Of a stretch of DNA of 64,000 bases, positions 1-23,100 are shown piece by piece. The DNA lies in assembly GCF_964355755.1 (NCBI RefSeq), contig NC_092677.1, positions 15,160,101-15,224,100 of the forward strand, written 5' to 3'. Under the pieces are notes generated by a model. That model was not told where the DNA came from. It saw only the letters and a list, made by a program, of their open reading frames with translations, and did not search any database. Source of the DNA: Antedon mediterranea. Taxonomy: Eukaryota > Echinodermata > Crinoidea > Comatulida > Antedonidae. The translations under genes and the position numbers were made by a program. Within the stretch, counting starts at the first letter, position 1. Each line of letters starts with the position of its first letter.

Positions 1-640
1 TATAATGCCATTACGCATTGGTTTCACACATTGATGATGTCACAGAATGTACACACAGTGATGAAATCACAGAATACAAACATTATTTACACACATGGAT
101 AACATATAATGCCATTACGCATTGGTTTCACACATTGATGATGTCACAGAATGCAAACATTATTTACACACATGGATAACATATAATGCCATTACGCATT
201 GGTTTCACACATTGATGATGTCACAGAATGTACACACATTGATGGAATCACAGAATGCAAACATTATTTCCACACATGGATAACATATAATGCCATTACG
301 CATTGGTTTCACACATTGATGATGTCACAGAATGTACACACATTGATGGAATCACAGAATGCAAACATTATTTCCACACATGGATAACATATAATGCCAT
401 TACACATTGGTTTCACACATTGATGATGTCACAGAATGTACACACATTGATGGAATCACAGAATGCAAACATTATTTCCACACATGGATAACATATAATG
501 CCATTACGCATTGGTTTCACACATTGATGATGTCACAGAATGTACACACAGTGATGAAATCACAGAATACTTACATTATTTACACACATGGATAACATGT
601 CATTACGCATTGGTTTCACACATAACACACTAGATTCATG
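1..640. repeat. 104-bp tandem repeat array, truncated by the window start
   Basis: About six copies of a unit containing CATTACGCATTGG, TTTCACACATTGATG, GTCACAGAATG and CACACATGGATAAC. The phase is clear from identical blocks starting near 199, 303 and 407, exactly 104 bp apart. Copies differ by point changes and by presence or absence of one internal GATGGAATCACAGAATG half-unit, so the unit is itself a lower-order duplication. The last copies decay between 580 and 710. Short open frames through it shift with the repeat and are not genes. Confidence 0.95.
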
Positions 641-1648
641 TTTTTCAAAAACGTTTGATGACATCACACACCTTTGAAACATTATTTCACACACATTGAT
701 GAAATCACAAAATTAACATGCTTACAAGAACGGTAGAAAACACATACATACATATAGATATGTGTACAAATTAAAAATATATGTAGCACTCATCAAATTT
801 AGTAACTAATATTTCTATATTTTTAAAATCAAAATACAAGCGATATATTATTAATGATTGTATATTACATGAATAAAATTGGTTAATATTTTATTTATCA
901 CTGATTTAAGCATTAAACTCGCACTTATCAAAGCATTAATGATTGTCCAACTTTACAAAATGTTAAAACGAAAATAACTAATATAACTCAAGCGAACACA
1001 GGTTAAAAAGCATTATTATTTATAAAATATATCATAATATACTGGCAATCCTAAAATTGTAATGCAATAAACATTGTAGTATTTCAATGATCAAAAAGAA
1101 TGAGAATTATTACTTTTACAGTACAGTAAATAATGTTTGTAAAAAAAAAAGTAAATTCTAAAACCAATACATTTACTTTACAATAGTACATTGTATTGTA
1201 CAAAGCCAGCAATACTGTTTTATTTAAAAATTGATTATTTACATTAAATGTACAGTAAGTAGAAAATACTATACAATAATGCTGAAGTTGTTATTAAAAT
1301 TTCTCACCCATACATAACATGTTGTTGATACAATATTAATTTGTAATCTCAACATAGGTCAATATTAAAATAATTGTATTCATGATCAAAATAAAATAGG
1401 ACTGATATCATCATAAACTATGCTGCCAAACTCTTCATCTTGCATCATTGTAAAGAGTAAAGCTATGTCTACACTATCAAATTAGTTTGACAAAAAAGGT
1501 GTGATGTACCCACATATGGCAGTGATGATGTCATCAAGTACATATATGGGGACATCACATTTTATAGTCGCATAAAGTTTGATCGTGTAGATAGATAGAG
1601 CTTAAGACTGAAGATGCTGGTGGTCTAAATCATGAAATTACACTACAA
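641..1648. other. 3' flank / likely 3' UTR of the minus-strand Ig receptor
   Basis: No coding potential seen. AT-rich DNA immediately downstream of the receptor stop codon at 1649. A minus-strand AATAAA is present at 1219-1224, about 425 bp after the stop, and is a plausible but unproven polyadenylation signal. A MITE copy occupies about 1458-1605, so if this is UTR the mobile element is transcribed with the gene. Confidence 0.5.
1458..1605. mobile_element. MITE family A, copy 1
   Basis: About 150-bp inverted-repeat element beginning AAGCTATGTCTACAC...ATCAAATTAGTTTG and ending AGTTTGATCGTGTAG...AGAGCTTAAG. The body carries CCACATATGGCAGTG and TATATGGGGACATCACA, found in four other copies in this window (7253, 44337, 55412, 62322). 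No coding capacity. Confidence 0.8.
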
Positions 1649-3670
1649 TTAATACAACCCTGCTTCTTCTGTTTGTCTTTTCCACATAGATTCCAAATCC
1701 AAATCAGATCCACTTTTTTCTAAAGAACTTTCGCTGCTTCCTACGGCACTAGCACGTAACCTTTCACGATACTTCTCCTGCTTCCGACGATGTTTATCAG
1801 CATCTCTTTCTGAACGATCCATGCTTTTTTGTGCTGCTTTCAAGACTTTTTGTTTTTCACGTTCAGCCCTCTCCTTGATCTTTTTATGTGTCTGCTCTAA
1901 TCGATGTCGTGCTGCCAAGTTGTGGTCGATTACCTTGCGTCCATAAATATGTGTGTTTGGAAATATAGGTTCTGGTCCATTTGTGGGTTTTTTGTCTGGT
2001 GTCTCATTACTATCTAAAGAATCGCCTTGTTGGTCTCTTGCGTTGGAAGTGCCTGGTGTATAATAAAAATAGTAATGCAAAGTAAGTATTACATTTTTAA
2101 CAAAGAAACATAATGATCGCCATATTTACATCATCCATTTTTGACAGTACATCCCATAATAATCGTTCATGCATGCCTTTCCATGAAACTGTTGTCCACT
2201 TTCTATATTGTGCTACATGACTACTTAGAGACCCTTTCCTACGTTTTTTAGATCTAATTTAAGATCACAAACTATATTTAATGTAAAAATAATACTACAG
2301 TACCATATATGGTCCTATTGCGATAACTTTTAAAAAAATGTGAAAACTAAGTTGATTCAAATAATCATAATTTTATAATTATAATTTCACTTGAATATGT
2401 AATAATCTTACTGTCTTTTCGTTCATTGAAGGAGTCCATTTTTAATGATTGGTTATTCTTGTCTGGCGTGTCTTCAATTACTGCTTTACCAACAAGAACG
2501 ACACCAGGATCATGGGGACTGTATTGAAAGCAAAATTATATAAATTATTATTGAAATAATAGTAACCATGTTATTCCTTAAAACATTTTTATTAACTGCT
2601 GATTATCACCAGATGTCTGGAGATTGGTTGACCAGACAACTGGCCTTCATTTTGAAGAGCAAGTCTGAGATTTTTAACTAGAAAGCTTTAAATTATTCTG
2701 CCATTAAGAAATGGTCTACTGCAAGAAGAGAGGAAATAGTGTTCAATGTGCCTATTAGGTTGACTTATCTTTAATATTATTTAAAAAATCTTACTTTTTA
2801 TAAAGTATATCTTCGCTTCCGTCCAAAACAAGTTTTCGTTTTGTTGTCAGCCAACTTCTTCTCTTGACTATTTTACTTCCCTTTATTTGTAATTCAGACT
2901 GTGAACCAACACTTCCTTCAGCAGGGACATAGCCCTCATTGTTGTAGCTGTTTGTATGGTTCTGATTCATACTGTAGCTTCCATATTGGCCAGACTCGGT
3001 GCTTCCAATTGAGCCTTCAGAGGAATTCTCTCCAAACATATTACTAAAATTTAGAATTTTCATTAATAGTATTAACTGTTTTTATGATTTTTAAATTGTG
3101 TTATCAATGCCATTCACCAGGTCTCAGTCGTTTATTAGTAGCTCTCATTTCCAGTTATAAGCCAATTTATTTCCAGGTCTTGACACTCATTCGTTACCAG
3201 CTCTCAATTCCTGGTGTCACTCGTTTATTACCAGCACTCATTTCCAGGTCTCACTCATTCGTTACCAGGTCTCATATTCATTACCAAGTCTCACTCATTC
3301 ATTACCAGGTCTCATATTCATTACCAAAGTGTCACTCATTTATTAACAGGTCTCATATTCATTACCAGATCTCATTATTTAAATAACATGTCTTGCATTC
3401 ATTCATTAACTTGTCTCACATTCATTACCTGGTCTCACTTATTCATTTACAGGTCTTACCCATTGCTGATCCAGTATTTGTCAGGAATCATTTTCTTCCT
3501 TCTTCCATAAGTTGAAATGTGACCAGTTTTTGTTGATCTGAATCTATGCCAGACAACTACAGAAACAACAGCGACAAGTATGATAAACAATACAGCACAT
3601 CCTATGATGGCTGCAAGTAATTCGGTGGTTATTCCGTCACTTGTATTTGCGCTTGTTTCTGTTACTTCTT
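1649..3670 (-). CDS. Receptor segment: membrane span and cytoplasmic tail
   Basis: Exon 3670-3460 encodes a Thr/Ser stalk, a hydrophobic helix (LLAAIIGCAVLFIILVAV...) and a basic stop-transfer stretch (WHRFR). The tail comes from exons 3043-2795, 2518-2412 and 2052-1649. It is Ser/Gly/Asn/Tyr-rich at first (NSYNNEGYVPAEGS), then basic (KIVKRRSW), and ends in a roughly 60-residue highly charged helix-forming segment (RLEQTHKKIKERAEREK and following) before an acidic/Ser patch and the stop. No kinase, phosphatase or recognised signalling domain is seen. The charged segment could form a coiled coil. Confidence 0.85.
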
Positions 3671-6600
3671 CTAAAAAAAAGTATGGAAATAATTTTAATT
3701 CCGTAATAAATTAAGCAGTTCACATACTCGTTTTGGTTAGATGTAGCCAAGTTTATTTATTTATTTAGATTTATTTGATACTTTTAGGAAGCTCATTTTA
3801 AGTTTTTATGTGTTTCCTATTCATCTCTTTATCAACCTATTTTTCTGATTTCTTTATATTTTTAACGATGATGAATAAAGTATATTTGATTGATGTAGTA
3901 ATAACAAAGTAATAGTTTTTAACAACTATCACGGTTAAAAATTTGTCAGATTTTAGTGCAATTGCTTGAATATTGTCAGCCTTTTTCTGTATGCACTTCC
4001 ACATAATGTATGATATATATAATATTCCTAACCTGGATCCGTGGTAATGATCACTTCATCTGAATACAACCCTGTACTTGTCCAAGTTGAAATTGCCATC
4101 TGAAAGCCATACGTTGTGTTTGATTTTAAGTCAGTGATGATTCTGCTAATTGCGGTAGGCTCAGATTCGGACAACATAAACGTTTCATTGTTATCCAATC
4201 GGCGGTACTTAATTGCATAGGATTTAAAAAGTGATGCTTCCACAGCCTAATATTAACAAAAAGATATATAAAACAGTTGTATATTAAACATTGTAATATG
4301 TTACTACCAACAGCAATTAAGGCCAATTTATACCGACGAGTGGTAACAGCAATAAAAATATAGAATCTATGTTATTCCTTATGACCATGTACATACAAGG
4401 CGGAGCAGATGGGCAGAGATGGGAGATACAGATTCTACGTGGAACAAGCTATGTGGTTTTTATTTTATCTTACTGCTCGTCTGACCTTTAACCTGTGCAA
4501 AGGATATTGAACCATTGACCTTTTAGATCCCTGGTATGAATTCCATTATTGCTGCTCTCATTACAATAATGCATTTTAATACATACCATATTATTTCATA
4601 TTTAACATGTACTAAATGAATAATGGAACTCATAGTTATATAAAGTACCCCACATTCAGTTCATTTTTTTTTAAAGTCATTACATTTCATATCAATCAAT
4701 AAATTTCACAATGCCATCATGCTTTCATTTATTCTTTGCTGGTACTATTATACATAATACACTAGTTACTTTCTTTTGAAACATACATTATGCATTTAAA
4801 TTGTCCTTACCATCCATGATAGTCTAACAGCATCTGTTCCAAGGACAGCAGCACGCACACCTTGCACTTTTAATGTCAATACTAGAATGGAACAATAATG
4901 TATAGTAAAGTAGTTGATTAATTAGGTTTCTTAAAGATGTATTGTCCCCCACAAACACGAAAAATAATGATTAATTAAATCAGACTTTGAATAGGTCATT
5001 TTGTAGCTCTAATAAAGTTTATCACTTCCATAGAAAAAACAACGAAAAAAAATAAAAAATAACATAATGAATGGTTAAATTCAACAAAAAATCCATTGGC
5101 TGGCAGCCAATTTGAAAATTTTTTGCTTTAAATCACAGTTTTTTCAGGTAAATAAATTTTGTTTGGATTTTTGGTCAAAGTGGATAGCCATTATGTAATA
5201 TTAAAATGGCATATTCAAAAAAAAAAAAATTGTTTAATTATTTTTCAGGGGGACAGTACATAATGTAATAAATTCATTGAATAGCTTATTACAGTTTAAC
5301 AATTATTTGTTACAAATGGTATCAGCACTTATTTAGTTTTGTACGTATCCTTACAAGGTTAAACCATAGCGGCCAAACAATAACCTAATTTGTCTTTATA
5401 TATTATACTTACCGTCTGCTTCTGTTTTGGCAACTATTGTTACAAATTCACTCCAGCCGTACACCTCCTTATTTCCAGCACGCATGCGTACTTCATAATA
5501 TGTCGCATACTCTAGATTCTCAATAACTGTTTCTAAAGGTGGAACATTCTCAAACTGAACTACAGTCTCCTGGACTATAGAACTATTTAATCGGTGGCGT
5601 AACTCGTATATTATGTTGTCTGCTGGGCCATTTAGTTCTTCAGGCTCCCTCCATTGGATACTGAAAGAGTTTGCTTGGGCTAAGATGTTGAGATTGTATG
5701 GAACGGTTGGTATACTTTGCTTTGTAGTTACTTGTATAGAAGGGTTACTCATTGGGCCTGATCCTAGATCATTGATGGCCCTTACGCTGAAGATGTAACT
5801 GGTATATGGTTTGAGGTCAGTTACTGTTGTTGTTTGCTGTACAATTACTTCTGGAAGTTCCGTGTACACAATGCTGAGGATCTAAAATTAAACATTATGA
5901 ACAATAATCATATTATAAAGATTAATAAATCATTATTTAGCCATGTAGAACTCTTACAATATGATGATGTAATTACAATACTAGTGTAATATAATATTAC
6001 CTCTTTATATAATACTTTAAAACCTGTGACCAGCAAATCGCTATTAGAGGGAGGTAGGCTCCAAACCAAACCAACAGATGTAGACAAAATGGAAGTTAGG
6101 CCTGGTGGCATTGGTGCTCCTGGAACTGTAAAAAAAAATGTTAGGAATTTTTAATCTATTGTAAGGATTTCAGAGCCTTGCATTAACAAAATTAATAATA
6201 AATAATATTTGATATGTAACAGAGAAACAGATATAATGGAAACTAATTTATTATTAACACTAAAGATGAGTAAATATGCAAGAATGAAAAAAAGCTGCTC
6301 TTCCTCATTTTCACAGTTTATAAATATAATTCAAATGTACATCACTTTAATCTAAAACATTAATACACCAACCTTTCAATGACCTCTGATCACTACCTCT
6401 TGCATTCTGGGCAAGGCAGGTATATTCATTTATCTCGGCTAAATCGAGACTCTCCACAAAAAGAGCGTCATCTGTTGTTATAATATGATTCTGGATGCCA
6501 GAACCTGTAAGTCGGATACCATTCACATCCCAGGCGATTGTAGGCTCTGGTGATCCAATGGCACTGCATAGAATTGTCAGGGAGGTTTCTTGTTGGGTTA

Positions 6601-9600
6601 TTTGAACTTTAGTTATAACTGGTGGGCCTGCATAATAATACAATAAGAGCATTACATTTGACAAAATCAACAAGAAATTCCTTTTTATACTGTAGTTATT
6701 TACACTGGTAACACTAGTGATGGTTTAGATTTAGCATCACTGGAACACTGTAAAGTGAATCCGATATTCCCATATCGGTTAGGATTTAAAATGAGTAAGT
6801 TTAGTTAATGTTGATTGTTCACTCTGTGGGTTATTTTGTTTAATGCTATTGGTAGCTAGCTCTATGTGCTTCCTAGATGAATTAAAAACAATGAATTGTC
6901 TCACCTAATATTGTGACCACAACAGACTGGTTGGCTATTCCTAGTTCATTGGTAGCAAGACATGTGAATTCCCCATGATGCACACTGACTGTTGGATTAC
7001 TGATTGTTATTGACCCTTGAACTCCTACGATGCTATCATCACTACTTGTTGGTTGGCCAGATGGAAGAATCCATTCTATATGTGGGGTTGGCCTTCCTTC
7101 TGCTAAGCATTCAAGTGAAAGCTGGTCTGTTCCAGAATCTTGGGTGTATGTTACTGAAGTTATTGGAATAATTCTAGGTGGAACTAAATATAAATGTGTG
7201 ATTCAAAAACATTGATACCAGCAAAATGTGAGGGAAGTAGAGTACTTTGTGTCCCTAAGTTTCCATCAACTAAAGCTATATGGACATATTTGGGAACATC
7301 ACACTTTTTCTTTCAAAATAGTTTGATAGTGTATACAGAGCTTAAGTTGTAAATATGAAATTTTATGTAAAATGTTTTAACTTACAATTTACTGCCAAGA
7401 ATGCCAATCCTGATATTGTTCCTACAGAGTTTGCTACTTCACATTTATAAAAAGAACTATCGACCTCTTTCACAGATGCAAATTCTAGAGAACCACTAAC
7501 TGAGATAAAGGTGCCTTCTCCTGGCATATTTGAGCTTGTGGTTCCAGTACCAACAGCACTCAACTGACTGCCATTGGCATCAGAGACATACCACGAGACA
7601 ATTGGTCTTTCTCTTGCAGATGCCAGGCAGATCAATGAAGCTGGGTTTCCCAGATTGGATGTAACATTAGTAGGTGGGGTTATAAAAACTGGGAAATCTG
7701 CATCAAAAATAAAAATGAGAACAAATATTAACTAATCAAGGAGCAAAACTGACATTAAAAACTAGAAGTAGTCGGCTTCAATATCCTGTCTGTCTTGTGT
7801 AGTCAGTCAATCTTCTCCTCCATCCATTCCTTTGAGAAATATACCATGGAGAGACTACATTTAATTCTCTCTAAAATGTTTGCCCCTAACATTGCTTTTG
7901 ATTTTTTAATTGGAAATTTTAAATTTCCAATCATACCTAAAGTTAAAATGTTGACCGAGATTTGGTTGGAACCAGCATTACTAGTAGCTACACAAGTGTA
8001 AGTGCCTAGGTTCTCCTCTGTAGCACCATTCACTACAATACTGCCATTCAACAGTAATTGTAAATTATTCACTGAAAAGAATAAGATATTAGTTAGAGCC
8101 GAGTGTTTGAGACAAGGGCACTGCAAACCACAGCCACAATATGGGAACAGGTTCAAGGCGGGTCTTTGACCATAGTCAGTAATAGAACAAGTTTTCTTTG
8201 ATAAGGACTTGGTGTACACATCTGTCTTTGTGTGTACTTACAAGATCCCAGTTTGTCTTTCGGAATAGTAAGGGGTTACCTCAGTATTCTGGTGAAATTT
8301 TAAACACCTTCCCAGTTGAATAGTTACAGAAACCCCAAATGGAACAATAAATATAAATCAACCTCAATTTTAAATTTTATTTTTAAAAAATTTCATATAT
8401 AATGCTTGCAGGTTTACCTAAAATCAGTTCCTCTCCATCTTTCATCCATGACACCTGCGGGCGTGGATCGCCATAAGCGACGCAGTCTAGACGAAACGAC
8501 TGCCCAAGAGTTACCGTTTGTTCTTGAGGGCGTACACTGAACTGTGGTGGTACTGAAAATGAATTGAAAATAACAAATAACAGTTTTATGGAAAAGTGTT
8601 AATAGAGCTTTGGTGCAATGCTCATATGATAATTAATACATAATTAAACAGTATTTTTCACTGATTTTTGTTTTGTCTTAGTAAACCTTTAGTTGACATC
8701 AGCCTAGGGAGTCATCAATCAACCTTACAACTTCACCTTCAATTCCTTACTACAGTACTTATGTACTACTCTCTAGGAGGGTAACATTTATCTATGTATA
8801 GGGTTACACTTATACCTCGATGAGGCTTGCGTTTTACCAGTGTAACAAAATACTTACTAAGTACTGAAAGATAGAACTGAGTTTGATCGTAACCCAGTAG
8901 ATTAGATACTTCGCATGTGTAAATGCCTTCCTGGCTTTTTTGTATGTTGTAGATTACTAGGTCACCATTACTGTATAACTGATGACTAGGGTCACTGGTT
9001 ATCTGCTGCTCTTGGTAGAACCATGCATACATAATCTGAGAAGAGAGCAAAATAGACAGTACTCCACATATTTACTGTATATATAGATAAAACTCCTATT
9101 AAGGGGTCACTTCAGGGCCATGATAAAGTGTCCCGGTAATACAGGTGTCTCTTGAATGGGGGTTGGAAATTAGCGTTAACATATACTGTATATTGCCTGT
9201 AAATCGTTTCACTAGGAAAATTTCCACTTAATAGAGGTGTTTCTTGAATAGGGGTTGGTAAATAGTGTTAACACATATATCCCATCATTCCTTCCATAGA
9301 AAAATATCCACTTAATAGAGGTGTCCTTTAAATATGGGTTTCCTAAAGGAGTACTGCAGTACTACTGTCCTCTTTAATGCCTTTTCATACTACTTCTCTT
9401 GTTTAGTTATGTGCTAAGATTTCTGATTCATGCAAGACGTTTTTTGGTACTTTTTAAAGTTGTGAATAGGATTCTTTTATTATCTAAGTTTTGTATTAGT
9501 ACTAATAGCAATACACTATTAATTTTAGTTTGTAAATACTAATACTTCACAACATGCTAAGTACACAAATCAATAAAGCCAGAAATAGGTTATATGATAC

Positions 9601-12600
9601 CAAACAATACATATACCAAACCAGATGGTTTTGAAAGCAAGTAGCTTTTGTGTGAAGGTAGTACTAATGGATAGAGAACTGACAATATCATTACGTACAG
9701 GTATGTACAAGATGGTACATATATTGCTTTATCCTTTGTATGGATGAACAGGGACAAAGAAAAAACATAACAAAAATTATTAGTTTATTTTTATCTCACA
9801 AATTTTTAATATGCTTGTAATCATTTAATTAGAGATAAGTCCGTATTTTAGTAACATTTTTAACTTAAAATACAAAAAGTAAATCTTCCCACCTGAGGAT
9901 TTCCATCAGCCCTGCACTGTAGTGTTGCCGTTTCTCCCTCTACAACTTGTTGATTTGAGGGTAAAAGCGTAAACCTTGGGGAGCCTAGAAAATGAATGAG
10001 ATTGATAAAACTTGATTTGTCTAGTCAAAATTGTAACTTGAAGAACACTGTTGACCATGCATAATCTAGAAAAATCTAAAATTATTAATATTTGTTTTTC
10101 ACTGATTATCAAAATGATTATATATATTATCAGATACTGGGAAAATGAGTGGTTTGTTATTATTCCAGATGTTCTAACCTAATTGAAGGCCCAAACAGAT
10201 AATAATGTTGATTTTGAAACTCTAATATTTCATAGTATAGTATGTTGTTTACTGATTTTATCAGATGTATAATAACACAGAGGGAAGGCATACTATATGT
10301 TAACTAGTTGTTAATTAAATGGCCAATATGAAATTTCTATTCCAAAAATTATAAAGTAAATTGAAAATATAAATGTTTATAGAATTTAAAAAAACCTTAC
10401 TTTGAACTGTGAGTACTGCTGATGTCGTATCACTCCCAACGGTATTTGTAGCACTACAAGAATATGTCCCCGACTGATCTGTGGTAGCGGACATAATAAC
10501 CAGTGAACCATTGGTCAGAACTTGAAAGCTTTGACCATCACCCCCAGGGGCTGGAATCGGGGCTTTATTAGGATCAGGTGTAGTCCATTCGATGAGTGGG
10601 GTTGGATTACCGCTGGCTTCACAGTGTAGTGTGACAGACAATCCTTCCACAACAATTGAGTCTACTGGTCTCGTTGTTATTACAGGAACAACTATTTTGA
10701 AGAGATAAGCAAGCAAGAAATAAATAGAAAAACAAACTGCATTTATATTCTCCAAATCTGAGTGTACTGATTGTTATAAATTTCCTTTATTAAGATTAAT
10801 CTAGACAGAGTCACTACCCTTTGGTACAAAAGTTTACTTTTAATTCAAATATTTGTTCGGAGTGAAGTCTTGTGAGGAAGAGTAATGAACATTCTTCAAT
10901 TTGTAAGGCAGCTTCTGAAGTAGATCTTGTACCAATTGTATTGGTCTCCCTTTCCACTGGGTTCAACTAGCAATGGAAATATTTCTAATGATTGGACAAT
11001 CATAGTCATTCTTTACTGAAGGATGCCTGATTGATTGCTATCATACCTTGAATCATAAGATGTGCTTGTGCTGACCGGCTTGTGTACCCGTTACTCGCTG
11101 TGCACTCATACACACCCTCATCTTCCCCAACAAGGTCAAGAAGCCGGAGCCAGCCCTGCCTAGGTTCTTCCAATCGATCAGCAGGTATGACACCACTTGT
11201 CTAAAATGAGGTGAAAAATCTATCTTAAATTTCAAATATTTTCATGAACAGTAAAATATAGAAACAATATGAAGGGGACATCTTTGTGACAATAAAGCAT
11301 CCTCTTATAGCTTACTAGGGGTGTTCTACTGTATACAAATACTTGTGTAATAATACCTTGATTTTAACTAGTAGTAAAAAATAAACTATATATATAATTA
11401 TACTTATTATTATACTCAATAGATACAACATTTCTGTGCAAAGAATATTACCTTTCTCCACACTATAGAAGGTGTTGGGCTCCCTGTTGCCTCACATTTA
11501 AAAGTAACTCTGCTTCCAACCAATGCTGACTGATCTGTTGGACGTAGTGTCAGGGTGACATCTTGAAGTGGCGGGTCAACAACGAGAAGTGCTGAAGCAC
11601 TGTTTTCACCCCAGCTGTTAACGGCTGTACATGTGTAATAGCCAGCATCTGACTGCTGTATATTGGTGATTGTCAGGGAGGTAGACGTGATGGTATAATG
11701 ACTGGAAGACTAAACACAAGAGAAGTATATTGTTATTGCATACTGTTATAACTTTAAGTCCAGGATGCAACACAAGGAAGTAGACTCAACACAGGCAATT
11801 CAACCAATCAGAACCAGAGAAATGTTCAGAACTGTTGATTATGGTTGGTCACATTATGTTGCTAGTGGTAACCACGTTTAAGCAAATACTTGGTGAAGTT
11901 TCTATGTTAAGTTGCATACCTTGTGTTACTTTCTTACCTGAATTTGTTGTCCATTATTATTAAGCCAATGGACAGTGGCTACTGGACTTCCTATTGCGAT
12001 ACATGAAAATGATACACTTTGACCTTCTGGTGCACGTTGACCTTCAGGTGGCTGAAGAAATCCTGGTCGCCCTAAAGTCAAAAAACTATTAGACTATTTT
12101 TCAAGTAACGTTTTGCTAACTAACTGTACAATAATTTCTTGAATATGTATCAACTACTCCTAAGGCTAGTTCAAATGAGACTTTGTAAGCATTATATAGT
12201 TTAACTGTAATTGGCAAGTTCCTTGCTGTTGGACGTTATGCAATTGTTAAGCATCAGTCACAGTTCACACCATGGTACCTGCTTTGCTGTGCGAACAAAA
12301 TGAATAACAAATTACCAATGAGAGTTAATGTAGCAGATTCACTGATAAGCTGTAACTGCAACAACATATTTTCAGCAGTACAGGTGTAAGACCCCATATC
12401 TTCATGATTGGGTGACAACACTGTCAGACTGCTTGATGTCACCATACCAACATTTGTCGTGCTAACAGACGCTTGTACAAGATCTTCACCATTGAGCTGC
12501 CACGACAATGTCGCTGGTGGGTTGCTATTAATACTGCATTGGAATGTTGACGTCTGACCCGTATTTGTGGTCACAGAGGATGGCTGGGTAATAAACAAAT

Positions 12601-13047
12601 CTGAAAAATCTGTTTTATAATTCAAAACCATTAAATGACAATAAGGTGACTGACAATAATTAAAAATTTGAATTAATTAATCAATGCATCTGTAAATTTG
12701 TAAAACTTACGAGCTAGACTAAGAGATGACCTCTGACTTGTGATAGTCTCCATACCAGAATTTGCCTGGCACATGTAATTTCCAACAGCCTCTTGAACCA
12801 CACTAAGAATATGCAGCGTACCATTGGGGAAAGTTTCAAATAGACTGCCTCTGATTGGCTGGTTATTGAACAACCAGGTAATGGTTGGTTCAGGATTTCC
12901 TCTGGCAATACAATGCCACCAAACTGGCTGAAGCTCAATGGCAACAAGTGGTGTTGGTTCCTGGATAAACTGCAGAGGAAGGGCATTAGTAATAATGCTG
13001 CAGATGAGAAGTAGTTGGATGTGGTATCTGCTTTCAAAACTGACCAT
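1649..13047 (-). CDS. Ig/FN3 transmembrane receptor (10 Ig + 3 FN3), 21 coding exons
   Basis: Type I membrane protein of the immunoglobulin superfamily, probably a cell-surface adhesion or recognition receptor. Coding exons in transcript order: 13047-12711, 12600-12316, 12071-11938, 11709-11452, 11200-11047, 10691-10401, 9984-9893, 9035-8858, 8552-8418, 8071-7937, 7697-7386, 7183-6905, 6627-6373, 6125-6001, 5881-5413, 4881-4811, 4246-4033, 3670-3460, 3043-2795, 2518-2412, 2052-1649. All junctions are GT-AG, every phase joins, and the sum is 4695 nt (1564 aa), which strongly supports the model. Domains: signal peptide about 1-24, Ig1-Ig10 about 25-948, FN3 949-1241, membrane helix about 1258-1281, cytoplasmic tail to 1564. 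Domain borders coincide with phase-1 introns. The count fits neither IGSF9 (5+2), Robo (5+3) nor Dscam (10+6), so no symbol is given. Exact family is uncertain. Confidence 0.9.
3044..3459. repeat. Degenerate tandem repeat filling a receptor intron
   Basis: The whole intron between the membrane-span exon and the next tail exon contains variants of a roughly 25-30 bp unit, ATTCATTACCAGGTCTCA(CTC). The genuine minus-strand donor GTAAGACCTG at 3459-3450 is itself the first unit of the array. Confidence 0.8.
4033..6125 (-). CDS. Receptor segment: three fibronectin type III domains
   Basis: Exons 6125-6001 and 5881-5413 encode FN3-1 and FN3-2; 4881-4811 and 4246-4033 encode FN3-3. Diagnostic FN3 positions are visible: early Trp (LVWSLPP, SIQWREP, LSWMV), then Tyr/Phe strands and the late L-x-P/L-x-Y-T-x-Y turn (DLKPYTSYIFSVRA, NLEYATYYEVRMRA, LKSNTTYGFQMA). 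The large 469-bp exon fusing the second half of FN3-1 to all of FN3-2 is unusual against the otherwise domain-by-domain exon pattern of this gene. Confidence 0.88.
4931..5266. mobile_element. TTAA-type MITE family B, copy 1
   Basis: Begins TTAAAGATGTATTGTCCCCC and ends with a weaker complement (GGGGGACAGTACAT). The interior matches the element at 24848-25189 in reverse orientation, including CAGACTTTGAATAGG and CCATTGGCTGGCAGCC. TTAA at the terminus suggests a TTAA target preference (piggyBac or Kolobok type); no protein is encoded. It lies in an intron of the Ig receptor. Confidence 0.75.
6373..13047 (-). CDS. Receptor segment: signal peptide and Ig1-Ig10
   Basis: Start at 13047 is the first Met before a hydrophobic stretch (IQLLLICSIITNA), followed at once by Ig1 with Cys, Trp and a Y-x-C motif (NYMCQAN). 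Each later domain shows the I-set pattern: first Cys, a Trp about 11-14 residues on, then D/E-x-G-x-Y-x-C (for example DMGSYTCTAEN, QSGTYSCSATN, NLGTYTCVATS). Ig1, Ig2, Ig5, Ig8, Ig9 and Ig10 are single-exon domains; Ig3, Ig4, Ig6 and Ig7 are split by one internal intron. Several N-x-S/T sequons are visible. The final domain reads EINEYTCLAQN. Confidence 0.9.
7253..7346. mobile_element. MITE family A, copy 2 (internally deleted)
   Basis: About 95-bp copy: ACTAAAGCTATATGG...GGGAACATCACAC...ATAGTTTGATAGTGTATACAGAGCTTAAG. The right terminus is well preserved, and the left terminus and first half of the body are shortened. Intronic in the Ig receptor gene, just upstream of the Ig8 exon donor. Confidence 0.65.
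8098..8290. repeat. Dispersed ~190-bp SINE-like repeat, copy 1
   Basis: Shares GGGCACTGCAAACCAC, TTTGACCATAG and GGGGTTACCTCAGTATTC with 32648-32850 in the same order and spacing. No clear pol III promoter boxes seen; could be the body of a SINE. It lies in the intron between the two halves of the Ig7 domain. Confidence 0.55.
9100..9345. repeat. Imperfect tandem duplication, ~100-bp unit
   Basis: Two to three decayed copies of a block containing CTTAATAGAGGTGT, TTGAATAGGGGTTGG and GTTAACA(C/T)ATAT. Similar GGTGTC/GGGACAC wording recurs at 28500-28560, 43000-43050, 54190-54245 and 60580-60690, suggesting old dispersed repeats. Intronic. Confidence 0.5.
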
Positions 13048-13105
13048 TATTGTTATTTGATTGCACTGGTCACATTCCTAAATGATTGGTCTATTAATAG
13101 GTTAT
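13048..13105 (-). other. 5' UTR portion of the receptor's first coding exon
   Basis: A minus-strand acceptor, pyrimidine-rich then TTTGTTTGCAG, ends just before 13105. The exon would then run from 13105 through the start codon at 13047. This implies at least one upstream non-coding exon between here and the RBM7-like gene. Confidence 0.6.
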
Positions 13106-17169: not shown

Positions 17170-20100
17170 GTAAGCATGGGGCTAAAACATAGTCCAACTT
17201 TAAATCATCGTCTAATTTCTAATTGCGATCATAGGGTGTTTTTAAAGTTTTGTTGTCATTTATTTCTGATAATAATATGAATATCAGAATTGTTAGTAAA
17301 TGTATTATGATTTTTATTTAAATTATGGATGCCTATTATAGATAGGCTAATTGTGATTTGTAAGCGTTTTAAATCCCCATCCATTCTGTAAATATTGTTT
17401 GTTAATTTTTTTTATTTGATTTGATGCTTGGAATTGAATTTTATTTTTCATAATTATTGGTTTATCTTTTTATATTGTTGAAAACAGTTTTACGGCTCTT
17501 GCCTTTGTTTTATAAATTTGAATATTTTTGCCGTTGTAACGGTTTTAAAAATGTATTTCTTTAAATGTATTGTATTTATGCATCTTGAAAATTGGTATAG
17601 TTAATTTTAGTGTAATAGTGCGTGTGTAATGTGTATTATAAATAATTGCAATTGGGACAATCATTTCCATTTGGTTTGTAGTTGCACATGTTCTATATGT
17701 ATGCTTAAACTATAATAGTAATTACATAAATAAGTACTGTCTCATACTTGAATTAACTATCAAAAAGTATTTAATGGTGTGTAAAATTTGTTTTTTTTTA
17801 AGGTCTGTTGAAAATCTGTTGTAATAATCATTTTTATTTTAGTTAAATTTTTGCTTTATCTTTTTTTTTCCAACTATTTAAAAGTTTTATTAAAACTACT
17901 TTTTATTGTAGAACATACAATGTGTTAGTATGTTATATGTAAGGTACTGATTAAGTGTTTTACCTTATTCAGTGGAAAAATGATCTGTCCATGCTTATTC
18001 TGAAGATAAATAGGTTTGGACCAGTACATTTTTATTAAATCTTAACCATTGAATATGTACCTTAAATTACAATACAAATGTATTTATTTTTGGAATTCAA
18101 TAGAAATAGACAAAACAGCGTTACATTACAGGTCCAGCAATATTGTTAATGCTGAATTCAATGTGTACGTGGTATGCACAAAGATTATTAATTTGAACCA
18201 TAACGTAATGAGTTTGATATTAATAATCCAAAATAAATGGATCAAAAGCCAAGCTTACAGTAGTAATCATAATTGTTTTGATAGAAAAATTCTTTTAATA
18301 GTATAGTCAATTTTGAGTTATTAGTTGAAGTTAAGGAGATTGTCTTGGTAATCAATCATCGGGCATATTTTCAAAATGAGCATAATTTGAAACATTCTGG
18401 AGTTGTCTGGAGACATCTACTCAAGGACACACTGTATACAAATAGCAGAAAACTAAAAGAAAAAGAAAATCTTTTCTAATAATCCCAGAAAGCATTGAAA
18501 ATAAAGGTCACCTGTGTAGAGTTCAGTGAGCATTTGCATTGGCCCCAGGACCTCAGAATCTACAGCAGCTTACTGAAGCTACCTGGTTTAAATCTTTAGG
18601 CAGGGAGTTGTTATTAGATGGAGTAACAACAAATTTATCAACTGATCTACAGCCAATAAGCGACGAGCGGTATACAGGAACCTCAAAGGATTATGCAGTC
18701 AACTGGCACTAATTTCCTGCCTTTTGTTTGGAGTCTACTTTGCCGACGATGCCAGGCCCTCTATCGCCGGGATTCGTCCATTTTGAGTAAAGACTTTCGA
18801 TGCATTCCTGACAAACAAACATTGTAGGCATGCGCAGATGATTCCTTCTTCGTCTATAGCTTTACAATTTGTTTACGTCATTAGAGAATTCTGCAATATA
18901 TATTTTACAAAAAACCGCTTTAAATTCCGACCTTTCGTTAAAAAGTTACGATAATTCAAAGTGTACGTTCATCTGTTTGTTTGTAGACCTTCTTTCGTGA
19001 TTTTCAGAGACTTTTGGTAAGTTTTAAAGTTAATATTTGATATTTTCCGCACGTTTCTCCATTTTAACACCAGCGCTAATATTTAAAAGAGTATGTCTTC
19101 TATCATTCTCTTGATATCTTATTTTCTTACAGTTTCTTACATAATCGTAATTTTGGTTAAAATACAACATGTTTTTATAGGTGTGGGCATGTTGTCAGTA
19201 GTGATAAACGCCAGCGTGTAATCTGGGTAATTAACACCCTCCGATCGTATGTTTGTTGGCGGCTGGAATCGCCGATTCTGGTGATGCACTAGGTACACCA
19301 CCAGGGCCTAGGCCTAGCCAGGGAGATGGTCTAATAACAAATCCCTGGCCTAGCCCTCTCCCATAAATAGGCCTAGGCCCCTGCACGTATGCTAGGCGGG
19401 GAATTACCTATATAACTAAGCATAGCCTATAGAATAGGCCTATATAATTATAGGATGTCCACTATAAATAATAATTAATATTAATACAATTCTATGACTA
19501 TGTATGAATGTACTGACTGTAATTTATTTTGTTGTCTTCCTGTTATTCATTATAGGAATTTGTACTGTAATAATGGAAATACAGGCTATTTGTCGTTTAT
19601 GTGGGCGAGAGACTGCTGCATCTGACTCAAGACGTCTAATTTTGAAATCTGATTATTCAGATTTAATCCAGCGTGCACTACAAGTAGATGTGAACACGGA
19701 TATTCTCCCACCATACAGTTGTAACAACTGTAGAGTAAAACTTGACACATGGAAGAAGAATATGCGCTCTAAAAAGAAGGATGTAAAAATTGGAATAAAC
19801 CTTGCTGATTTTGATTCCAGTGAAAAACCGACAGAAGAATCTTTTTTCTGTGAGGCAGCAGTAGTTGCATTGCATCTCAAATGGGATACATTCTTTGGAA
19901 AGGAGAAGACAAACACATGTTTACAAACATTGTTATTTGTACATGATTGTACATGTATTTATTTTTAAATATGTATTTAATACAAAGAATTAAAAAATGA
20001 CTCAGTATATCGATTATTTTTATTTACAGTATATCATTCATTAAAAGCCTTGGTTACATTTAGATATACAGTACTGTTCAGTACTTGATTTTTCTTCTGC

Positions 20101-23100
20101 ACTGTAGCCCCTTTCTTCTTTGTCTGTGCAGGGAGTTCCCTGGTCTGTGCAGGAACATCTTTGTCTAGAATTGAAAAAAAAAACAATTAACATAACTCCC
20201 TGGTCATACATTTAATCAGGCGTTGTCAATTTAACTCCCGGCATTTGTTAACAAATGAAAAATACATAAATCTTCCCAATTGTCAGTAGTGACAGCCCAG
20301 GTCATAATTAATAAATGGAAATAATACTGCATCATCAGAAAGTTGTTTTTATTGGGGTAGGCCTAGCCCCTACTTGACCGTCCCTCCCTTCCTTCCTGAT
20401 GAAATATTAAAGTTCAATGAATAAATACCTGTAAAAAAAAGGCAACGTAAAAGGCCTCCTTTCTTTCCTAGAGATTCTAGCTAGGAACGGTAGGCTGCAG
20501 TAGTATCAAATATTGAATAGGCTACACCAGTTACTAACCTGTTTCTTGAGTAGTAGTAGTACTACTAGGTCGCTTAACACTAGGCCTACTTGAGCCAGGC
20601 CTATGCCCAATATTATTAACGTCGTGTTGTTGACAGCATTGCTCACAAACCCATTTGCCAGCTGGAACTTCAGAAGATGTGAGCAGTGAGCTTCACACAT
20701 TCAAAATGGAACCATTCATTAGGACATGCTTTTCCTTCACAAGCGATCATTTGATCGTCAGAACTTTCCCCACATGGGCAATACATTGGCACATTTTCAT
20801 TTAGATCAACATCTTCTAAATCGCTATCATCGAAATCTAAATCGGAAAAGTCTACGTACATCGGTATAGAAGTCGTCAGTTGTCATTGTGTGTCGCGATT
20901 GTATCATCTGGCTTTCTGAAACACCATGACGATGTGTGACGTAGGCCAGAGTTATTCAAGCGAAGCGAAGCAACTTTGACTTTTCTGCGCATGCGCGTGT
21001 CATTGATTACGTCAGGGAAAATTGTTTATTTGATGAGGAACTGTTTATCGGGGATTAAGTCTTATCTATTTTACTTCCTGTCGGAAAAGTAGACTGATCA
21101 AAAGAACATACTATGATGTTACTCCATCTAATAACAACTCCCTGCTTTAGGGATGACATTTATCACAGGGCCTGTTTCTGCAAGAATGTGATTTTTTTAG
21201 CAACAGAAACATGGCTAATCCAAACTTATATAGTCTAATTTTTTTTTGTAAAATAAAAAATGTTATTTCATTTAAAGAGGAGCTATTTTAAATATTCATA
21301 GTAACAACCATAGTGTATCTTGATCAACCTAAGCTTAATTCACACTTGTTGCATTTTATAGAACAGCAGACAGAATCTTTTAATTCTTTATAAGATTTAT
21401 TATTACAGAGCTGTCTTCTATTCCATGAAATGGAAAAAGTTTGAATACAGAATGAAGATCCTTTTTTCCTGTCGTTTTTCTAGGTTTTTATAATTCTACA
21501 GTAGGAATGTAGAATATTCAATATGATCATTGTAAATCACAAGTGCTTGTCATCTGCATTTGCTACTTTATATTTGATAGGTACTTTATTTACCTTTTTA
21601 TAACCTTTCTTCTCATACATTTATTACCCATAAAATATGGAGATATTGTAAAAACATACAGTTTAATAACTCATTTAAGTGAACTGTTCTAAAAAAAATG
21701 TGAACACTTGGTACTTTTACAAATAAATTATGGTACTTTTACAAATAAATTATGGCATTTTTCAACTAGTTCTTCTGCAGTCTACACTTTTAATCCACAG
21801 AAAGTATTCTAGAAATTAGAGTCAGAATTAGAACAGCCAGTATAGGATGCATCTTGCCAACAGGAATATGTCAGATTTAATTTTTCACATTTCTTGGAGC
21901 TGTTAGTCTTAATTCTGTATTTAAAGAAGATTTAAAGAAGATAAAAAGAAGGAAGTTAGCAAGTAAAACTTAGGTTTGATGTTACATTGTCTGTTCAATT
22001 GTTGGTATCCAAAAATGTATTCAGACAAGAGTTTTCCATTTCTTATTTTTAATTCAACATGGTTTAATTAATATCCAAGTAGGTTTCTACAATAAAGGTA
22101 TTTAAAGTTTAAAATAGATTAGGTTTTTGGTTTTGGTGTCCATATGGTAATTGGTTGATGATGCAGCAGGAATCCATCTAAATGACTTTGTGCATTTCAT
22201 ATGATTCTAAACTAACCTTTCCTTAGTTTTTTGTTTTGTTTATCGGCAGATGTTCTGTGCTGTCATGTATCGCTTTCAACCTATTTCTTTATGACTGTAC
22301 AAATAAAACACATTTTAACTACAGTTCTTATAGCTTTCGGTCATCACACTATTGAAACTTTTCCATTTGTTTGGAAACCCACAGTATTGCTTAATATAGT
22401 TGATACTTGATTCCACTAAATAATCCCAGGATACATAGTATAAATAGGATATTATTGATCATTTCATCAAACACTTTTTCACCGATCAAAGGATATTTTT
22501 AACGGCTGTATTTACGGTGTTCAAATGATTTCTTAGCAGATGGAAACTGTACAGACTTTAGGGTAATATTCTATTGTGTAAATATCCTTAAGATATGTGG
22601 TTATTGACTTCAAATAGAACACTGTTGAATACAGATGTAGAAAAAAGTTCTATATTGTGCCTACTTAATAAATATTGGTATGTCAAACATCACTTCTCTT
22701 TGTTTTGGACCAACTTCAATCTTAGGATATTTGATTATTATGATTCCAAATCATACCGTTGGATGCACATTATTTAAAAATGTTTTGGCAAATACTGTTA
22801 CTTTTTCTTTATTTTAAATATCAATTTCACATTTTCACTAGTGATTACCAAACCATTACAGATGAGAAAAAAAAATGTTTGTCGTATTGTTACCAAACGT
22901 TCTTTATTCTAAAGACGACTTTCTCTTTGTCTACAGTACAGTAAGTTAGTTGTATTTTGTATGTTTTTGTTAAAAAGTGTTACTATAGTATTATGCTCTT
23001 TATTTAATATTTTAAAGATCATATTTTACAGACTTCCTCAAGGTATTTGACTATTTTGAATAGCAAGCTGTTGATGCAGATGGTGATACCCACACTACAG

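Follow-up and report, generated by a model that had tools for sequence, protein, structure and literature searches.

The evolution of adaptive immunity leaves open where the N-terminal region of RAG1 and the two-gene layout of RAG1/RAG2 came from, and a transposon of the crinoid Antedon mediterranea bears on this question. The transposon occupies positions 18594–21151 of a 64,000-nucleotide stretch of DNA, referred to here as the window (NCBI RefSeq assembly GCF_964355755.1, contig NC_092677.1, positions 15,160,101–15,224,100 of the forward strand). An earlier note on this stretch took the element for a carrier of the two accessory modules of the RAG system, a RAG1-N-like gene and a convergent PHD-finger gene, travelling together with no catalytic core. 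The analysis presented here indicates that the element very probably derives from a P-superfamily transposon with two convergent genes, of which it is a young copy, internally deleted and non-autonomous, and this degree of confidence covers its P-type, two-gene origin. Judged by sequence comparison, its likeness to RAG1/RAG2 is one of shared N-terminal domain type and parallel layout, not of RAG ancestry.

The window element and its copies

The element ends in terminal inverted repeats (TIRs) that are identical over 28 bp and are enclosed by two copies of CTTTAGG (Table 1), as the earlier note had correctly read them. The genome searched comprises 354 Mb in 18 contigs, and the genome counts given here are lower bounds. 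The 28-bp end has 24 matches with at most three mismatches (12 forward and 12 reverse; 19 of 24 perfect), and a reversed control pattern of this end has none at the same threshold. Ten two-ended copies are known, including the window copy and a variant, L010. An exact 7-bp duplication, in nine distinct sequences, flanks nine of them, and in L010 six of the seven bases agree; duplication lengths of 6, 8 and 9 bp do not match in the eight copies scored (the duplications of L005 and L007/L008 were identified by reading the flanks directly, outside this length scoring). Compared with the window copy, the eight other copies that hold the exon for the zinc domain (ZAD exon) show 12 to 49 substitutions in about 2.5 kb when indels are left aside, and the family has therefore been mobile recently. 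The internally deleted form seen in the window is the most numerous form found in its family.

Two convergent genes, here called gene A and gene B, are represented in the element, and the earlier note was right about their presence and arrangement. The forward-strand reading of 131 aa that it reported, for which the table of open reading frames (ORFs) gives a longer 154-aa version starting at 19504, does contain the zinc-type pattern CRLC...DLI...VDV...CNNC. At least its last 14 residues, from 19925, are a deletion artefact that reads what was probably a gene B intron, because the window copy resumes its match to L010 at that position, just upstream of the second exon of gene B. On the reverse strand, the PHD exon is real, but the C4HC3 finger of the window copy is frameshifted and is not encoded in any single frame. 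The frameshift comes from a short duplication inside the finger that is common to seven of the ten copies; the finger can be read through in two copies and is broken at another place in L010. The ZAD ORF is open in five of the nine copies holding the exon and broken in four, by one in-frame stop and three frameshifts, two of them via one common insertion. Since these frame-breaking changes are shared (seven of ten PHD fingers, two ZAD exons), the copies must have multiplied after their own genes broke, unless gene conversion spread the changes, and the gene products are then supplied in trans or are dispensable.

KP elements of Drosophila provide the comparison for another reading of the deleted copies, in which these are kept as repressors and their short zinc protein pairs with the full transposase into inactive dimers. 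The open ORF in five of nine copies and the predominance of the deleted form among those found are consistent with such a role, and the four broken ORFs are not; retention as repressors is considered quite unlikely.

What the deletion removed can be read from L010, which agrees with the window copy in its ends and in its left and right portions but carries a different deletion. In place of the ZAD exon, L010 has a forward-strand exon for the C-terminal RNase H domain of the P type (PF21789, 1.7e-8), faced by pieces of the convergent gene B. The deletion in the window copy took the catalytic part of gene A together with the second exon of gene B. In a genome search with pieces of L010 and the window copy, the C-terminal exon, the ZAD and gene B are co-located at several loci. 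Separate insertions of the two genes are ruled out by the presence of both the PHD and the ZAD exon in nine of the ten two-ended copies, by L010, in which the PHD exon is joined to other parts, and by the layout shared with the relatives described in the next section.

Further observations concern individual copies. At C8:6821138-6821173, two overlapping, opposite end matches form a 36-bp palindrome of abutting window-family ends. The copy L007 is interrupted, at about 460–9520, by 9 kb of inserted DNA in which ~101-bp repeats form inverted arrays, and seven element bases overlap at the two borders of the insertion. This nested stretch was considered as a source of transposase and ruled out, as it consists of repeat arrays and its longest listed ORF has 113 aa. 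L011 and L012 (C9, 17.69 and 17.02 Mb) are 3.5-kb segments that are 99.9% identical, each with an internal 92% repeat, and contain a 397-bp fragment from the right part of the element.

Full-length relatives and the core of gene A

Longer copies with a transposase, which the earlier note had suggested looking for, exist as relatives with other ends, and none of full length was found with the same 28-bp ends. Between inverted repeats, these elements measure 6590 bp (L015), 6812 bp (L018) and 6324 bp (L019), and the full-length relatives hold gene A and gene B in one element, tail to tail. L019 is flanked on both sides by GATACCG and a deleted relative, L028, by GTAAAAC, each of 7 bp; by eye, one end of L015 is without the outermost bases present in L028 and L019, and no clear duplication is seen at L018.

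The exon-1 ORFs of gene A match PF21787 at 2.8e-19 (L015), 1.8e-17 (L018), 4.9e-24 (L019) and 7.9e-25 (L016), and gene A matches PF12017 at 1.2e-5 to 0.023. In the exons of L019, PF21788 (the GTP-binding insertion) is matched at 0.011 and 4.4e-6, and PF21789 at 8.3e-6. A profile of four gene A ORFs finds the Drosophila P transposase structure 6p5a at 8.7e-11. The DEM and DxPHLxK motifs of gene A, candidates for catalytic acidic residues and the D-x2-H motif, align to this structure, the last acidic residue being without a one-to-one mapping; the same profile also matches designed pentatricopeptide proteins (3e-4 to 0.0075) and phycocyanin (0.094), which are taken as noise. On these profile matches, the family is placed in the P superfamily, the gene A of full-length relatives having the helix-turn-helix (HTH) and both RNase H halves (PF12017, PF21787 and PF21789) and the GTP-binding insertion. 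The absence of a catalytic core is therefore not a property of the family, which has a P-type RNase H transposase; the window copy lost it by deletion.

The type of this core also bears on whether the modules could derive from a RAG/Transib transposon now lacking its own core, an origin that the RAG1-N profile matches (see the last section) and the convergence of the zinc-domain and PHD genes would favor. In the gene A proteins, PF12940, the RAG1-type core, has no match; a genome-wide search for the RAG1 core also gave no match, but its controls likewise matched nowhere. RAG and Transib elements have 5-bp duplications and CAC ends, whereas the present elements have 7-bp duplications and CAGGG or CATGG ends, and the inference of the earlier note that the backbone is other than Transib is borne out. 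RAG ancestry is rejected because the core is P-type; taken with the features of gene B described below, such a derivation is extremely improbable. A hAT origin, suggested by the CAGGG ends, is ruled out by the 7-bp duplications and the P-type core.

Outside the window family, nine loci carry gene A with a ZAD and a P-type core, and six of them (L014, L015, L016/L017, L018, L019 and L013/L027, the last being fragmentary neighbors) also match gene B and the PHD finger. Gene B lies 152–309 bp downstream, on the opposite strand, at 10 of 15 C-terminal exons, loci that are not independent, some being copies of one family. Several points weigh against a P-type, two-gene origin. The other three ZAD-P loci (L020, L021 and L022, each covered over 4.5–6.5 kb) match neither gene B nor PHD, and the remaining five of the 15 C-terminal exons are without a gene B match within 5 kb (18 matches, from a single query). 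The genome search found no full-length copy with exactly the 28-bp ends of the window element, the parent element being reconstructed from L010 and relatives with other ends, with gaps in the assembly possible. A THAP domain has no match in gene A at E values up to 1, and P elements, like Pdre2, make duplications of 8 bp.

Other P-like loci deserve mention. L031 (C1:2821000-2827500) is a P-like element in which gene B is convergent and neither ZAD nor PHD is matched; PF21788 is matched there at 6.5e-18, and the genome has the 794-aa transposase ORF of L031 at three sites. At 51–4040 of L017, a retrotransposon polyprotein ORF (reverse transcriptase, RNase H and integrase) is inserted in the ZAD-P element. 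L025 (6814–6873) and L026 (112–171) each hold a 60-bp palindrome of two abutting related-family ends with flanking 7-bp copies of CTCTGTG, and the two loci resemble one duplicated segment in opposite orientations (all by eye). Elsewhere in the window, the reverse strand of 5399–13077 bears a series of ORFs that by eye resemble the Ig and FN3 repeats of a host gene with multiple exons.

Table 1. Parts of the window element, in window positions
Feature	Position	Strand	Remarks
Target-site duplication, left	18594–18600		7 bp, CTTTAGG, same as 21145–21151
Terminal inverted repeat, left	18601–18628	+	28 bp, perfect inverted match to 21117–21144
Internal TIR-like remnant	19330–19347		18 nt, 94% to right end; the divergence between L010 and the window copy falls inside it
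Gene A remnant, 131-aa reading	19573–19965	+	N-terminal ZAD/RAG1-N-like zinc domain, truncated by deletion
Deletion joint zone	19822–19925		bounded on the left by the last residues that can be aligned to gene A in relatives and on the right by the first base in common with L010
Gene B exon 1	20539–20861	-	acidic N-terminus and ING-type PHD finger, frame broken within the finger; end at 20539 set by eye at a donor-like site, CAG/GTTAGT (slash, exon border)
Terminal inverted repeat, right	21117–21144	-	28 bp
Target-site duplication, right	21145–21151		7 bp, CTTTAGG

Gene B: PHD finger and second exon

In the full-length relatives, gene B encodes an N-terminal ING-type PHD finger followed by a domain of about 340 aa. 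With a profile built from three PHD exons, ING3 is matched at 2.9e-18, and the 20 best rows are ING-family chains, in which we presumptively include YNG1, YNG2, PHO23 and png2. For the finger of the window family (copy C3_37.4), the ING4 match reaches 1.6e-15, and ING-family chains once more fill the first 20 rows. RAG2 chains are absent among the best 60 of 108 and the best 60 of 92 PHD matches. By eye, the window family has Y, M and W at what we take to be the positions of the ING2 cage residues. The zinc spacing of the gene B finger differs from the invertebrate RAG2L pattern (PMC7204232). On these comparisons, the finger is ING-type and not RAG2-type, which argues against RAG ancestry. The second exon has no significant match to a Pfam family and no fold match, and its model is all-helical at low confidence (pLDDT 57), again unlike what a RAG-derived element would lead one to expect; kelch is not among the Pfam matches of gene B, and the idea of a kelch protein finds no support in this model.

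Ordinary P transposases carry, within one chain, a tail downstream of RNase H. Gene A stops 42–49 residues past the match to the RNase H C-terminal half (L019, L010 and L030). In other P-like copies (L024, L033 and L035), a Y-V-A-G-Y region follows RNase H on the same strand, none of the three being an intact single ORF and L035 itself being deleted, by its spacing. In L035, this region is followed by G-G-L ... E, and gene B keeps the same order of motifs. When the C-terminal half of gene B (four rows) is compared by hhalign with eight P-like tails, of which L035 alone spans the whole region and most others are near-identical fragments, the score is 29.0 over 79 columns, and 200 column shuffles reach at most 19.7. 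A version with two tails scores 20.3 over 22 columns, and 100 shuffles reach at most 15.7. As a control, the N-terminal halves of gene B show nothing against L035. This residual likeness makes it somewhat probable that the C-terminal half of gene B stands in for the P-like C-terminal tail and that the transposase is split over two facing genes.

Set against such a split are the hhalign probability of just 23% for this comparison; the weak pairwise comparisons with L035, in which the shuffles scoring as well number 1 (L031), 7 (L014), 87 (L019) and 171 (L017) of 1000; the search of the PDB with the gene B profile, which found no P transposase; and the E value of 8 at which this profile scores the L024 tail. 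The tail region was picked via a recognized motif, and hindsight enters the comparison.

Alternatively, gene B could be an unrelated passenger gene that was captured once, which would agree with a second exon lacking a significant family or fold match and with the five C-terminal exons that have no gene B match. Its same position and orientation at 10 of the 15 loci as well as in the family of L031, where ZAD and PHD matches are lacking, and its residual likeness to P-like tails argue against this, and a captured passenger is regarded as rather unlikely. The single case of L031, in which the genes are convergent and neither domain is matched, hints that ZAD and PHD are gained or lost together.

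The zinc domain and comparison with known systems

The relation to RAG1 that was claimed for the zinc domain is found at the level of the family. The window ORF alone matches zf-AD at 1.9e-4, under the curated cut-off, and has chance matches only in the PDB. PF12560 (RAG1 importin binding) is matched by L018 at 25.0 bits (cut-off, 23.3) and by L016 at 16.9 bits, and three places in the genome, L018, L023 and L024, lie above its cut-off. A profile of eight zinc-domain sequences, including that of the window, finds the solved RAG1 N-terminus (21wb) at 4e-6, followed by a fly ZAD (8.8e-4), full-length RAG1 (0.0038) and an anti-sigma factor (0.022). With the transposase profile, 21wb (4.8e-4) and RAG1 (0.0046) are both ahead of the fly ZAD (0.029).

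L023 (C3:30571000-30579000) and L024 (C4:14285500-14293000) are two copies of another element with a PF12560 zinc domain. In Pfam, L023 matches PF12560, RING below threshold and DUF1280 (1.2e-19), and from their Chapa-RING layout we take both copies to be Chapaev-like. The zinc domain of the present family matches theirs by hhalign at 95.7% (E 9.6e-9), and the L023/L024 domain itself matches RAG1 at 1.7e-6.

The domain could also be a plain ZAD with no special relation to RAG1, in which case the RAG1 score would reflect a common fold. Five of six gene A proteins match zf-AD (1.3e-5 to 1.4e-3), all under the curated cut-off (best 25.8 bits; cut-off, 28), and the best single stretches of the eight-sequence profile are close, with 25.0 bits for 21wb (1.6e-4, 37 residues) and 22.3 bits for the fly ZAD; full-length RAG1 ranks below the latter. 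In addition, the three top Foldseek matches of the AlphaFold model of the window domain (pLDDT 63) are fly ZADs (probability 0.77, 0.57 and 0.28; E 0.29 to 1.5). The first rank of the RAG1 N-terminus with one profile and its lead with the other, the position of L018 above the PF12560 cut-off and the match to the RAG1-matching L023/L024 domain point the other way, and a plain ZAD, although a serious candidate, is held to be doubtful. The zinc domains described here are likely to be nearer to RAG1 than to insect ZADs, a placement that is not settled, and a single superfamily seems to embrace ZAD, Chapa and RAG1-N.

In the mechanism proposed for the full-length elements, the zinc domain would dimerize and/or help to recognize the ends, and the RNase H core would cut and paste, leaving 7-bp duplications. 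Gene B would supply a second transposase subunit, the PHD finger of which may tether the complex to H3K4-methylated chromatin and steer integration, and the C-terminal half of which may replace the C-terminal tail present after RNase H in other P-like transposases. The deleted copies move in trans, as their shared breaks show unless these were spread by gene conversion. By that reading, the pair would work like RAG1/RAG2 without belonging to that family.

A more comprehensive proposal is offered tentatively. The elements may encode a RAG-like two-subunit transposase on a P-element backbone, split over two facing genes; one chain would combine the RNase H core with a zinc domain of the RAG1-N/Chapa type, and the other the former C-terminal tail with an H3K4-reading PHD finger. 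RAG1-N would then belong to a common pool on which Chapaev, Transib/RAG and P-type transposons draw, a convergent zinc chain with a PHD partner would be a recurrent arrangement and not a RAG invention, and N-RAG-TP may be a deleted member. A RAG1-N-type domain on P-type transposases beside a convergent PHD gene provides an independent comparison case. It makes it possible to test if a transposase is guided to marked chromatin by its PHD partner, and if chromatin readers and N-terminal zinc domains tend to be combined. Literature searches on these combinations, the scope of which excluded Repbase and most subscription papers, so that an earlier description is possible, yielded no recognized publication of such elements.

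Among known systems, the P superfamily (Drosophila P, Galileo, 1360, THAP9 and zebrafish Pdre2) shares with these elements the HTH, the RNase H halves, the GTP-binding insertion and the TIRs. They differ from it in having a ZAD/RAG1-N-like domain where P members have THAP, a convergent second gene that bears a PHD finger, and a gene A that ends soon after the RNase H C-terminal half. The fly ZAD proteins M1BP and Pita, which are transcription factors and not transposases, share the fold of the zinc domain, with a weak match. Chapaev transposons have a related N-terminal zinc domain, as judged from L023/L024 (classed as Chapa by layout and PF12560), and a different transposase, the core of gene A being P-type.

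Galileo makes 7-bp duplications (PMC4168063), as this family does. N-RAG-TP of Aplysia is described as a mobile element that encodes only a RAG1-N-like protein (as cited in PMC8355894), and the window copy, compared with it by description, likewise seems to encode only such a protein. From RAG-like transposons (ProtoRAG, RAG1L/RAG2L) and RAG1–RAG2, the present elements are set apart by the P-type core, the 7-bp duplication and the ING-type PHD finger at the N-terminus of gene B, in which no kelch is detected; what they share with them is a convergent gene pair, with a RAG1-N-like domain on the transposase chain and a PHD finger on its partner.

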